A DNA stretch of 64,000 nucleotides. It comes from an uncultured Methanobrevibacter sp. (GTDB lineage: Archaea; Methanobacteriota; Methanobacteria; Methanobacteriales; Methanobacteriaceae). Under the pieces are notes generated by a model. That model saw only the letters and a list, made by a program, of their open reading frames with translations, was not told where the DNA came from and did not search any database. Location of the stretch: contig CACYJH010000006.1 in NCBI GenBank assembly GCA_902774685.1, forward strand, positions 1 through 64,000, in the 5' to 3' direction. Made by a program: the position numbers and the translations under genes. This document shows, piece after piece, positions 57,877-64,000 of the stretch (position 1 is the first letter of the stretch; every line of letters begins with the position of its first letter).

Positions 57877-59241
57877 TTAAGTTCCGAACTTTTCTCTCAC
57901 TTTCTTGATTGTGTATCTTGCAAATGTGAAGTTTAAGATACTTGCAAGAATTCTTCCTGTTGCAAGACCTGTCCAAATACCGACTAGTCCCCATCCTAAC
58001 ACTATTCCAAAAGTGTATGTTGCGGTGACTGTAAAGATTACCTCTCTGATGATGGTCCACATCAAGCTCATGGTTCCTCTACCAATTCCTTGATACATGA
58101 AACTGGAGGTCATTCCCGCTCCGGTGAGAGGGAGACAAAGGCTGGCAATTCTTAGGAATCTTGTAATTTCAGGCACTAAAACTGATGTTTCTTTAGTGTA
58201 TGCAAACAATGTTGCAAGTTGTGGTGCAAATGCAATAAGAATTATTGTCACAGCTGTTCCAAATGCTATACCAAATTTAACCCCATATAAATGAGCTCTT
58301 GATAGGTAATCTCCATTTTTAGCACCATATGCACTTCCGGAAACTGCAGCCACTGCACTACCGATAGCGGTAAGAGGCATTATTGCAAATAGGTATAATC
58401 TTTGACCTGATGTAAATGATGCAATACCGTATTCTCCTCCAATTGTTGAGATGAATATTAAATATAGGCTTACTGCAAAGGACATCATGAACATGTCCAT
58501 TGATGCTGGAATACCTACCTTTAAGATGTCTTTAGCTATTTTTGAATCGAATTGGAACTCTTTTAGGTTAACATTCACATAGGTGTCCTTTTTGATGAGT
58601 ATCCAGTATAGGATTACAGATGCTGATCCAAGAGCACTGACAATTGTTGCAAGGGATGCTCCTGCAGAACCTAATCCCATTACATAAATGAAAAGTGGGT
58701 CAAGAATTGCGTTGAGGGTTACAGACACAATCATTGCATACATTGCCCTTTTCATATCTCCTTCACCACGAAGGATACCGCTTCCTCCGTTACCGAACAT
58801 AAATGCAATGAGACCTAAGAATAAGGGGGTTCCATATTTAATACCTTCTGCAAGGTTTTGTCCACTTGCTCCATAAGCTCTAAGCAAAGGTTCCTGAACG
58901 GATATTAAGATTACTGTAAGAATGATTGAAGCCACTAAAAATATTAAAAGAGCATGAGCTGCAGATTTGTTGGCACCTTCATGGTTTTTAGCACCTACAA
59001 ACCGACTTATGCTACTTGTAGCACCGCTTCCAAGACCTACGCTCACACCATTCAATATCATGAAAATAGGTGTTACAAAACCGATTCCAGCTATTGCAGC
59101 CTGTCCAAGCCCTGCTACCCAAATACCATCTATGATATTGTATGATGCTGTAAGTAGCATGGATATCATAATTGGGATAGCAAGTTTTTTCACTGCTGTT
59201 TCTGGATTTCCCCTCATTAATTCTACATTTTTATTTGCCAT
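57877..59241 (-). CDS. MATE family efflux transporter
   Basis: A 454-residue, 12-helix MATE protein in two matching halves. LAIPIMISMLLTASYNIIDG then IWVAGLGQAAIAGIGFVTPI in the first half and LKVGIPASMDMFMMSFAVSL in the second are typical. It exports cationic compounds by Na+ or H+ antiport. It lies 110 bp upstream of the NSS transporter on the same strand. Confidence 0.94.
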   Translation of the reverse strand: MANKNVELMRGNPETAVKKLAIPIMISMLLTASYNIIDGIWVAGLGQAAIAGIGFVTPIFMILNGVSVGLGSGATSSISRFVGAKNHEGANKSAAHALLIFLVASIILTVILISVQEPLLRAYGASGQNLAEGIKYGTPLFLGLIAFMFGNGGSGILRGEGDMKRAMYAMIVSVTLNAILDPLFIYVMGLGSAGASLATIVSALGSASVILYWILIKKDTYVNVNLKEFQFDSKIAKDILKVGIPASMDMFMMSFAVSLYLIFISTIGGEYGIASFTSGQRLYLFAIMPLTAIGSAVAAVSGSAYGAKNGDYLSRAHLYGVKFGIAFGTAVTIILIAFAPQLATLFAYTKETSVLVPEITRFLRIASLCLPLTGAGMTSSFMYQGIGRGTMSLMWTIIREVIFTVTATYTFGIVLGWGLVGIWTGLATGRILASILNFTFARYTIKKVREKFGT

Positions 59242-59291
59242 TTTATCCCCTATAAAAAAATAATGACTATTTTTTTATTTATTTTTCTTAT

Positions 59292-59975
59292 TTAAATTAA
59301 TTTTTGTTGTTTAGGTTTAATCTGCCAATCAATCTCCTTTAAACTGTTTTTCTTTAGGAATTCATTAGCCAATTTGAAATGATTGCATCCAAAGAACCCT
59401 CTTCTTGCAGAGAATGGACTTGGATGAGAAGATATTAGCACTAAATGATTAGGATTTGTAATCAGTTCCTTTTTGAGTTCTGCCTGTTTTCCCCATAACA
59501 GGAAAACGATAGGATGATTTTGTTGATTTAAGATGCTTATTACATTGTCTGTAAATGTCTGCCATCCACATTTGCTGTGTGAGTTTGCATTTCCCTCTTC
59601 AACAGTGAGCACTGTATTGAGTAGGAATACTCCCTGTTTTGCCCAGGATTCAAGGCAACCGGATTCTGGAATTGGATAACCGTATTCAGATTCTATTTCC
59701 TTGAAGATGTTTTTTAGGGATCTTGGGATTGGATGCCCTTCAGGTGTTGAGAATGCAAGACCGTGAGCTTGTCCCTCTTCATGATAAGGGTCTTGGCCTA
59801 AAATGACAACTTTCACATTATCTATTGGACATAACTTGAATGCATTGAATATTTCTTCTTTTGGAGGATAGATTGTTTTTGTCTTATATTCTTCATCTAT
59901 AAATTCCTGAATTTTTATGAAGTAATCTTTATTGAATTCTTCCTCTAAAACATTGTCCCATTCATTTCCAATCAT
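59292..59975 (-). CDS. ung: Uracil-DNA glycosylase, family 1 (Ung)
   Basis: A 227-residue Ung. The catalytic water-activating motif is VVILGQDPYHEEGQAHGLAF (Asp in GQDPYH) and the C-terminal DNA-intercalation motif is SSHPSPFSARRGFFGCNHF; GVFLLNTVLTVEEGNANSH is also conserved. It removes uracil from DNA. Family 1 is the bacterial/eukaryotic/viral type; most archaea rely on families 4 and 5, so this gene was probably acquired from bacteria. Base composition does not differ visibly from its neighbours. Confidence 0.95.
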   Translation of the reverse strand: MIGNEWDNVLEEEFNKDYFIKIQEFIDEEYKTKTIYPPKEEIFNAFKLCPIDNVKVVILGQDPYHEEGQAHGLAFSTPEGHPIPRSLKNIFKEIESEYGYPIPESGCLESWAKQGVFLLNTVLTVEEGNANSHSKCGWQTFTDNVISILNQQNHPIVFLLWGKQAELKKELITNPNHLVLISSHPSPFSARRGFFGCNHFKLANEFLKKNSLKEIDWQIKPKQQKLI

Positions 59976-61305: not shown

Positions 61306-62043
61306 TTATTTCATCACTCTATTTAGAATAAAATACATAATTTTTCCAAAGAGCTTTTTGAAAATTCCTAAATTAACATCTGGAGCAAATTCGTAGTTCA
61401 CCAAACCTGTGCTTTCCCAATATTCCTTATCCTTTTTCATTGTATCGCTTTTTGGAGCCATAGCTCTCCAAACATTGTAGAAAATGATGTCTCCAATTTT
61501 TGGGGAATGGAGCTTTTTGCTACTTACATCCTTATGGAACTTTTGAGAGATCTTATTTATCTCTTCTGTGTTGATTTCCTCTTTTCCGCCAAATGCATAT
61601 TTTATTTGATATATCTTATTGAATCCCCAATGCCTTAATGTTTCATCAATGTAGTTAGCTACGTCCTTTTGGCCAGCTCCTGCTGTAGATACAACAACAA
61701 GTGCTTTCTTATCAAAGAATTCTGGTCTGTGATATATGTATGCAGTATGGTCAAAGAAGTTTTTAAGGAGTGCAGTAACATTCATTGCATAAACTGGGCA
61801 TGCTATTATGATTCCATCTGCCCATCTGATCTTTTCTATGATTGGATTCACTGTTTCGTGGTGAGGACAGTTTTCCTCTCCTTCCATAATGCATTTGAAG
61901 CAGCCATTGCACATAGGGATCTTTTCCTTCATCAATTGCACTTCTTCAAACTCTGCATCTTCTCCTAAATTTGTTTTTGCCTGTTTAACCATGCTCCATG
62001 TATTTTTCTTTCTTGGAGACCCATTGATAATTAGATATTTCAT
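61306..62043 (-). CDS. Flavodoxin-like NAD(P)H/FMN-dependent oxidoreductase
   Basis: A 245-residue protein. The N-terminal FMN-phosphate loop is MKYLIINGSPRKKNTWSM; a cysteine cluster MCNGCFKCIMEGEENCPHH and the flavin-contact segment IIACPVYAMNVTALLKNFFD then HTAYIYHRPEFF follow. This is the NADPH-dependent FMN reductase-like (iron-sulfur flavoprotein-like) group. The C-terminal 60 residues form an extra basic domain (FNKIYQ..., then IFKKLFGKIMYFILNRVM). It is 28 bp downstream of the TetR-GNAT gene and probably in its operon. Confidence 0.88.
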   Translation of the reverse strand: MKYLIINGSPRKKNTWSMVKQAKTNLGEDAEFEEVQLMKEKIPMCNGCFKCIMEGEENCPHHETVNPIIEKIRWADGIIIACPVYAMNVTALLKNFFDHTAYIYHRPEFFDKKALVVVSTAGAGQKDVANYIDETLRHWGFNKIYQIKYAFGGKEEINTEEINKISQKFHKDVSSKKLHSPKIGDIIFYNVWRAMAPKSDTMKKDKEYWESTGLVNYEFAPDVNLGIFKKLFGKIMYFILNRVMK

Positions 62044-62071: not shown

Positions 62072-63397
62072 TTATATGTCTAATTGTCCTTCAAGGACCT
62101 TTTTTTCTTTATATTCAAATCCTTCATCAAACTCATCAACCCTTTCCTCATCAACATCAAAGACCTTTGGGTTGTTGAATATTCCCTTATCGTAATCAAA
62201 ATCATTAAAAGTCTTTTCAAATATTTTTATCATGAAAAATGGATTCTCTTCATCAAGATCTGTTCCTTCCAGGAAGAAATTGTACTTTGATGCACTTTCA
62301 AATCCGAATCTGTGGTAATAGTCTTCATCGCCGATTACAAAAACAAATGGGATATTCATTTTTTGTGCAAGATTCAAAGTGTATCTTATAATTTTAGACC
62401 CATATCCATGGCTTTGATGTTTGCTGTCTATAGCTATTGGGCCAAGAACTGTGGCTTTTCCACTGCCTTCATTCACCTTAATGTCAACTCCATACCTATT
62501 TTCCTTGTAAAGGTCCAGTCTTCCGTTTGAATAGTTTATATGGCCTATGAGCTCATCATCCTTTTCAATCACATATGCCAAATCCTTTATGAAGCTTGAA
62601 TCTTCCCTTAATTTATGGACGATATAATGTTCATAAGCTCCTGGCCTATAGACATTCCAAAAGGCATCCCTTACCAGATTTTCCACTTTTGAATAATCCT
62701 TCTCCTTTTCCAATCTGATATGTCCATCATTTGGGATTTCACCATCATTATTATTATCTTCATCATCATTTTCTTCCATATCGATCTTAACGGAATTGAA
62801 TAGAAGCTTCATATGTGCTGTTGTTCTTCTTTCGAAATCCTTTAGGAATGTCTTATCATCTTCTGGATAATTTATTATGAAATGTTCATATAATAGGAAC
62901 AGTCCATAGTAATAGAATGATTCTGCAAGTTGCTTGATGTCAGCATCCCTTCTGATGAAATTCTTTTCCTTCATCACTTCAAACAGGTCTTCCCATCCAT
63001 CAATTGCATAGCCTATAATCGCTTCCTTTACAAAATTCTTTATCTTTTCGTTATGATATGATTCCACAAGAAAGATTCTTGTGATTTTCATCATCTTCGC
63101 TTCGGAAAGTTTTGAGATGAATCTGTCGCTTCCTTCCTTATAGAACTGCTCAAAATCCATATTCAATTTTTCTCCAGATTGCATTACAGGTGCTTCTTCC
63201 TTAAGCATTTCCTTAATGTAATAGTTTAATATGGATTCTAAAATGGATTCCTTGCTATTATAATGATTATAGATGGAACTTTCTTTTATTCCAACTTCTT
63301 TAGCTATTTGCCGTATGGAAACTCCATCATATCCTTTTTGTGAGAATAAGTCAATGGAAACATCAAATATCTTTTCCTTCGTATTTTTTTCTGCCAT
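62072..63397 (-). CDS. TetR-family regulator fused to a GNAT acetyltransferase
   Basis: A 441-residue fusion. Residues 1-50 are a TetR helix-turn-helix (IFDVSIDLFSQKGYDGVSIR, QIAKEVGIKESSIYNHYNSK), followed by a helical ligand-binding domain to about 205. After an acidic linker (MEENDDEDNNNDGE), residues about 225-400 form a GNAT domain with the acetyl-CoA loop SKHQSHGYGSKIIRYTLNLA and the DEDYYHRFGFESA motif of N-acetyltransferases. No stop or frameshift lies between the parts. Two ACTAAC/GTTAGT palindromes upstream suggest autoregulation. The reductase gene follows at once. Confidence 0.88.
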   Translation of the reverse strand: MAEKNTKEKIFDVSIDLFSQKGYDGVSIRQIAKEVGIKESSIYNHYNSKESILESILNYYIKEMLKEEAPVMQSGEKLNMDFEQFYKEGSDRFISKLSEAKMMKITRIFLVESYHNEKIKNFVKEAIIGYAIDGWEDLFEVMKEKNFIRRDADIKQLAESFYYYGLFLLYEHFIINYPEDDKTFLKDFERRTTAHMKLLFNSVKIDMEENDDEDNNNDGEIPNDGHIRLEKEKDYSKVENLVRDAFWNVYRPGAYEHYIVHKLREDSSFIKDLAYVIEKDDELIGHINYSNGRLDLYKENRYGVDIKVNEGSGKATVLGPIAIDSKHQSHGYGSKIIRYTLNLAQKMNIPFVFVIGDEDYYHRFGFESASKYNFFLEGTDLDEENPFFMIKIFEKTFNDFDYDKGIFNNPKVFDVDEERVDEFDEGFEYKEKKVLEGQLDI

Positions 63398-63650
63398 TTT
63401 CTCCCCTTGAGCTGATGTTAATGCTTATTTGATTTTTTAAAATTACTATTAAACTAACACTTGTTAGTTAAATTCATATTGTATTTTTATTTTCTTTATT
63501 AATAAAACTAACGATTGTTAGTATAATTTTTAAAAAATAGTTTTTTTTAAAGTTTTTAGTAAAAATGTTTAAAAAAGTAATATGAGTTGTTTTTTCATAG
63601 TTTTAGTAAAAATGTTTTAAAAAAGTAATATGATAAAAAATAGCTTAGAA
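63398..63650 (-). promoter_or_regulatory. Promoter region of the TetR-GNAT gene with two operator palindromes
   Basis: AACTAACACTTGTTAGTT (63452-63469) is a perfect 18-bp palindrome and ACTAACGATTGTTAGT (63507-63522) is a second, near-perfect copy; their centres are 54 bp apart, about five helical turns. Both share ACTAAC-N4-GTTAGT, a form typical of TetR operators. They lie 55 to 125 bases upstream of the TetR-GNAT start. Confidence 0.75.
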
Positions 63651-64000
63651 TTATCTATTTTCACTATTGAATACGATGTATGATTTGTTGAATCCCAATA
63701 TCTCATCGAATTCAAATTTGCAGTTCAACTTGGATAATTCTTCAATATTTTTTGATTTCATAAGATCATCATTTGAAAATGGATTATACATGGTTCCTTC
63801 AGTAGTAAATGCGACACGAAGCTCATCATCTATTAACCTTATTGTAATGTAAATTTCTTCAAGATTTGGATTATTCTCAAAAATATCATTGCATATATCA
63901 TTAATTGAATTTGAAAGAACTACTGCATCATCATTTAGTTCATCTTCAATGGCAAGCAATGTTTCATTGGATTCCTCATCCAAATACTTATAAATTTTTC
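63651..64000 (-). CDS. C-terminal fragment of a protein ending in a histidine-kinase-like ATPase domain
   Basis: The frame ends at 63651 and is open to the right edge of the window, so this is the last 116 or so residues of a longer protein; the TTG at 63983 is unlikely to be the start. The visible part (NPNLEEIYITIRLIDDELRV, AFTTEGTMYNPF, LGFNKSYIVF) resembles the end of a HATPase_c domain of the anti-sigma/serine-kinase type: a strand, a D-x-E-L turn, a glycine and 'YNP' loop, and a final N-x-Y-I-x-F strand. The N-terminal domain is outside the window. Confidence 0.55.
   Translation of the reverse strand, partial: KIYKYLDEESNETLLAIEDELNDDAVVLSNSINDICNDIFENNPNLEEIYITIRLIDDELRVAFTTEGTMYNPFSNDDLMKSKNIEELSKLNCKFEFDEILGFNKSYIVFNSENR

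Follow-up and report, generated by a model that had tools for sequence, protein, structure and literature searches.

A TetR-GNAT fusion protein with paired predicted operators in Methanobrevibacter, derived from a tetR-gnat-isf operon

Autorepressors of the TetR/AcrR family, such as TetR, QacR, RutR and EthR, combine an N-terminal helix-turn-helix (HTH) with an all-helical ligand domain and have palindromes in their own promoters. The archaeal protein described here shares this layout, its own-promoter palindromes being predicted operators, but differs in carrying a C-terminal catalytic-type GNAT domain and in acting, apparently, at no promoter other than its own, which has an archaeal TATA box. 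The best sequence and structure matches of this GNAT domain are YhbS-type proteins (E. coli YhbS, 4rs2; Brucella, 4zbg), which have the same acetyl-CoA loop; unlike these, it is joined to a repressor and has a C-terminal extension that runs to residue 441. The third component of the system belongs with the Isf proteins of Methanosarcina thermophila and Trichomonas, with which it shares an FMN_red domain containing a compact CX2CX2CX7C motif (PMC3164229), whereas here it is the product of an operon partner gene and is longer (245 aa). Other sensor-GNAT fusions are known, such as mycobacterial PatA, whose sensor domain binds cAMP (PMC4964394); in the present protein the sensor is a DNA-binding repressor, and the likeness is one of domain layout that does not imply allostery of the GNAT. 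RNA-seq of M. ruminantium with lauric acid lists several GNATs and regulators (PMC5816558).

The closest counterparts are the tetR-gnat-isf operons of smithii-like Methanobacteriaceae, which encode homologous proteins in the same order behind the same operators, but in which TetR and GNAT are two separate proteins with a short or overlapping gene junction in place of the acidic linker seen here. No description of a TetR-GNAT fusion was found in the open literature searched. What appears to be new is that TetR and GNAT are combined, that this came about repeatedly and that the combination has native operators in Methanobrevibacter; the domain families, the logic of the operon and the evolution from operon to fusion are of already known kinds.

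The fusion gene and its Isf partner

The gene lies in a 64,000-nucleotide stretch of DNA from an uncultured Methanobrevibacter sp., the whole of which was analysed and is referred to below as the window. Its features and those of the adjacent isf gene are as follows.

62072..63397, minus strand: TetR-GNAT fusion gene, 441 aa, the fused form being common to 12 genomes of the genus
62783..63397, minus strand: TetR domain, residues 1-205, with the HTH (residues 10-55) at 63233-63370
62720..62782, minus strand: acidic, fast-evolving linker, residues 206-226 (length variation, pLDDT, high dN)
62075..62719, minus strand: GNAT (YhbS-like) domain, residues 227-441 (Pfam, AF2, PDB match, dN/dS)
62399..62416, minus strand: acetyl-CoA pyrophosphate loop QSHGYG, Q328-G333 (alignment of 61 rows)
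63402..63408, minus strand: ribosome-binding site AAGGGGA, 5' of the start codon (read from the sequence)
61306..62043, minus strand: Isf-type iron-sulfur flavoprotein (FMN_red) with C45-x2-C48-x2-C51-x7-C59, the third ancestral operon member

The first-pass annotation had described one continuous frame encoding a TetR repressor, an acidic linker and a GNAT domain with an intact acetyl-CoA loop, and this description is confirmed. A single uninterrupted frame encodes all 441 residues, in which Pfam recognizes TetR_N at residues 10-55 (5e-14; 52 bits against a curated cutoff of 24) and Acetyltransf_9 at residues 227-368 (6e-8). The Q/RxxGxG/A loop of the GNAT superfamily is present as QSHGYG, with Q328 and G331 retained in at least 97% of the 61 relatives aligned. 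The structure prediction that the annotation had proposed returned a TetR-type N-terminal half and a YhbS-like GNAT. In the whole-protein model, the confidence of which is moderate (pLDDT 64.5), the N-terminal half resembles TetR regulators, and these are also the best Foldseek matches of its helical ligand domain (TMt 0.6-0.8, on the same moderately confident model). The GNAT domain modelled alone reaches a pLDDT of 90.7 (AF2, 40 sequences); its predicted fold is closest to that of E. coli YhbS (TM 0.68/0.82), and the Brucella GNAT with acetyl-CoA is also among its PDB neighbours. Between the two domains, pLDDT falls below 50 at residues 207-223, and this linker is hypervariable, with high dN and a length that differs greatly among relatives. 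Between fused orthologs, dN/dS is 0.03-0.09 for the TetR domain and 0.09-0.15 for the GNAT domain, and, judging from such sequence comparison, purifying selection acts on the latter, which indirectly favours a GNAT that is active in acetyl transfer.

The isf gene starts 28 nt beyond the stop codon of the fusion gene. It had been annotated as a flavin reductase in the same transcription unit. A shared unit is supported by the conserved order tetR-gnat-isf, but the name says too little: the product combines an FMN_red/flavodoxin-like domain with the compact CX2CX2CX5-7C cysteine motif, the defining signature of Isf (PMC3164229), and is better called Isf-like because the C-x2-C-x2-C-x7-C form of the motif is invariant in all 58 relatives compared. 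A search of the PDB found no close sequence match for this protein.

Inclusion of the neighbouring MATE transporter in the unit was considered and is not supported: a MarR-family gene precedes MATE in several relatives, and the unit conserved across genera is tetR-gnat-isf only. The genome of the window lacks this MarR-family gene (region 57877-59292), which close relatives (e.g., G005) have between uracil-DNA glycosylase and MATE. On the other side of the fusion gene, positions 63651-64000 of the window, continued to 65420 in L037:8652-10421, encode a MATE-like protein of 589 aa. Its C-terminal part is unassigned except for a weak likeness, at the end, to the anti-sigma ATPase RsbW (0.005 with NCBIfam); this is possibly an unusual MATE fusion.

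Paired predicted operators and local autoregulation

The promoter region of the fusion gene contains the following elements.

63507..63522, unstranded: upstream operator (predicted), exact palindrome ACTAACGATTGTTAGT that directly adjoins the TATA box
63496..63506, minus strand: TATA-box-like TTTTATTAATA, directly downstream of the upstream operator, with TTTATATA at the same position in relatives
63453..63468, unstranded: downstream operator (predicted), exact palindrome ACTAACACTTGTTAGT, close to where transcription is expected to begin

The two ACTAAC-N4-GTTAGT palindromes reported earlier are exact 16-bp matches and lie 54 bp apart, i.e., 5.1 helical turns. The TetR-family trait of a palindromic operator at the repressor's own promoter is present, as sites predicted from sequence. 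About 0.03 exact sites are expected by chance per genome, and the chance of a pair within 400 bp is about 1e-11. Of the 50 relatives that have an orthologous TetR, 46 retain both sites with no more than one mismatch in either, and in 44 of these 46 a TATA box of the TTTATATA type begins right after the upstream one. The five-turn spacing that had been remarked upon holds for this promoter and for most of the window's genus (51-54 bp), but it is lineage-specific: the spacing differs in the smithii-like genus (29-50 bp), so the system as a whole keeps no fixed helical phase.

Control of a wider regulon was considered as well and is not supported by a genome-wide site search. The 2.07-Mb draft genome that includes the window has no exact palindromes beyond these two, and in 10 other genomes the exact sites are confined to the tetR-gnat promoter, the one exception being G076, a genome without the locus, where they lie at the promoter of a TetR paralog. 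Two conserved operators, one at the TATA box and one near the start, strongly suggest a local autorepressor, of a kind that would bar transcription factors or polymerase from its own promoter, and local autoregulation by the TetR half is well supported at the sequence level because the predicted operators sit at the fusion-gene promoter only. The genes that the fusion protein turns on and off are very probably just its own small set, which is probably a detoxifying one.

The second TetR paralog, which is about 40% identical (promoters in L148-L157 and L142, L158-L160), shows one operator-like site of another type, near CCTAACGAACGGTAGG, in those checked genomes that have the tetR of the locus, and in G098 too; in the four genomes where this tetR was not found (G076, G071, G095, G101), it has the ACTAAC-N4-GTTAGT pair. 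This suggests that operator specificity has diverged between coexisting paralogs. In other genera of Methanobacteriaceae (L052:5897-7414, L054:6921-7955, L147:3625-4710), a TetR paralog is directly followed by a DUF116 or radical SAM protein, and the TetR-DUF116 pairs are often in frame with a single stop codon between them. At L036:2399-2414 (L126 represents the same region of that genome), a one-mismatch operator lies upstream of the gnat of a gnat-isf pair without an adjacent TetR, and this site is possibly a relic or a target of another TetR.

Distribution and repeated origin of the fusion

The search for the same fusion in other archaea, also proposed earlier, found it in 12 species-level Methanobrevibacter genomes of the window's genus, mostly at 72-92% identity, one of these genomes being a single contig of 2.94 Mb, and in three genomes of the smithii-like genus; when 152 genomes of the phylum were searched with profiles, none turned up outside these two genera. 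In the three smithii-like cases (G084, G092, G105) the fused protein is short, 406-409 aa, and its linker only a few residues long. Overall, tetR, gnat and isf are separate in about 31 genomes, tetR and gnat are fused in 15, gnat-isf only is found in eight, and tetR-isf only in four. The approximately 31 genomes with separate genes belong to the smithii-like genus, in which tetR and gnat are adjacent or overlapping, isf follows directly and the operators are the same; all eight gnat-isf loci, which have no adjacent TetR ortholog, and three of the tetR-isf loci, which lack the GNAT, are also from this genus. No full-length match pointing to spread by plasmids or phages was found, PADLOC gave no match suggestive of a role in anti-phage defence, and the neighbours of bacterial relatives of the GNAT gave no clear functional clue.

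The origin of the fusion from an ancestral three-gene operon, tetR-gnat-isf, is clear. The tree of the TetR proteins requires three changes of state, and the AU test rejects a single clade, and with it a single origin, for all fused rows (p=6e-6) as well as a single clade for the three short fusions (p=4e-46); by these sequence comparisons, there have been at least three independent fusion events. The gap between tetR and gnat in unfused pairs is mostly -44 to +12 nt. Loss of the stop codon between the adjacent genes was probably the route, and it is the simplest one because several unfused pairs already share a frame with only one stop codon between them. In the window's genus, parsimony alone does not decide between fusion and fission; we read the direction as fusion because the outgroup TetRs are unfused, stand-alone GNATs occur and loss of a stop codon is simple.

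In G011, the TetR ends after a linker-like tail, and the repressor, the operators and isf are kept but the GNAT is gone. The 103-nt gap before isf in this genome reads NNETIRLEEKN, the start of the GNAT, in one frame, which indicates that deletion of the enzyme postdates the fusion. Given that this genome keeps everything except the GNAT, the repressor probably works without it.

Proposed function and alternative readings

We regard as reasonably probable the reading that [TetR-GNAT]-isf is an autoregulated two-gene operon that is released by an inducer and whose GNAT and Isf products consume the signal. The TetR half would bind as a dimer to the two operators, one abutting the BRE/TATA and the other near the start site, and would thereby block assembly of the preinitiation complex and hold down expression of its operon. 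Release would follow when a small compound, probably a reactive or toxic one, occupies the ligand domain, and the amounts of fusion protein and Isf would then rise; the GNAT half may then acetylate an amine, either the inducer or its product, while Isf would reduce an oxidised or electrophilic partner, and once the signal is consumed repression would return. The covalent joining would set a 1:1 ratio of sensor to enzyme, and neither activity would require it.

The compound to which the operon responds is probably reactive or toxic. That the inducer is detoxified is plausible, by analogy, because of the ancestral tetR-gnat-isf operon and the Trichomonas Isf homologue, which reduces O2 and detoxifies the nitro drugs metronidazole and chloramphenicol (PMC6006210). 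A consistent but unproven scheme is that a nitro or quinone compound is sensed by TetR and reduced by Isf, and that the amine so formed, or a related one, is acetylated by the GNAT. No established substrate of YhbS was found, and the detoxifying role of the GNAT thus rests on context.

The joining itself might be a near-neutral loss of a stop codon, after which the domains act as the formerly separate operon products did and gain nothing beyond co-expression. This is a possibility to be taken seriously, if a tentative one: the short or overlapping and in several cases in-frame junctions, the hypervariable linkers and the loss of the GNAT in G011 all speak for it, but the same pair has been fused independently at least three times, is joined in every one of the 12 loci of the genus that have a GNAT, and has both domains under strong purifying selection. 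Conversely, coupling might have selected for covalent joining on these three or more occasions, with a ligand or acetyl-CoA on the GNAT altering operator binding by TetR, or with the GNAT acetylating TetR; such a true bifunctional sensor-enzyme seems rather unlikely to us. There is no obligate link between sensing and acetylation, because loci without the GNAT and loci without an adjacent TetR ortholog both occur. A specific auto-acetylation switch, in which the GNAT modifies a lysine of its own TetR so that DNA is released at high acetyl-CoA and the protein reports the metabolic state, has a precedent in E. coli RutR, another TetR-family protein, which loses DNA binding upon acetylation of K52 or K62 and the N-terminal tail of which is enzymatically acetylated (PMC10891134). 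In the alignment, the invariant K49 of the fusion protein is the counterpart of RutR K62, but the counterpart of K52 is E39, which is not a lysine. Moreover, lysines of the K49 type are common among TetR proteins, TetR and operators persist without the GNAT in G011, and the two are separate proteins in most relatives, all of which makes the switch distinctly improbable.

Protein acetylation, which the first-pass annotation had offered as the alternative to detoxification of the inducer, finds no direct support in these data. It is highly improbable that the fusion protein is a promoter-tethered acetyltransferase with a nearby chromatin or transcription protein as its target. TetR would indeed place the GNAT at a single promoter, and the GNAT superfamily contains protein acetyltransferases (PMC4964394), but the GNAT is untethered in the commonest state among relatives, YhbS, the closest fold, is not an established protein acetyltransferase, and no target was found. 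Finally, the first-pass annotation had raised the joining of two genes by a sequencing error. Nothing except the two-gene state of relatives favors such an artefact of sequencing or assembly, and we consider it ruled out because the same fusion recurs in 12 independent species-level genomes, including the single-contig one.

The locus provides a clean natural series in which an archaeal transcription factor and an enzyme pass from operon to fusion: the genes are separate in some genomes and fused with a short or a long linker in others, and in one the enzyme has since been lost, with the same operators throughout. Methanobrevibacter is a dominant methanogen genus of the rumen and gut. The compact, apparently single-target repressor/operator promoter is native to this genus and might serve as a genetic switch if its inducer is found.
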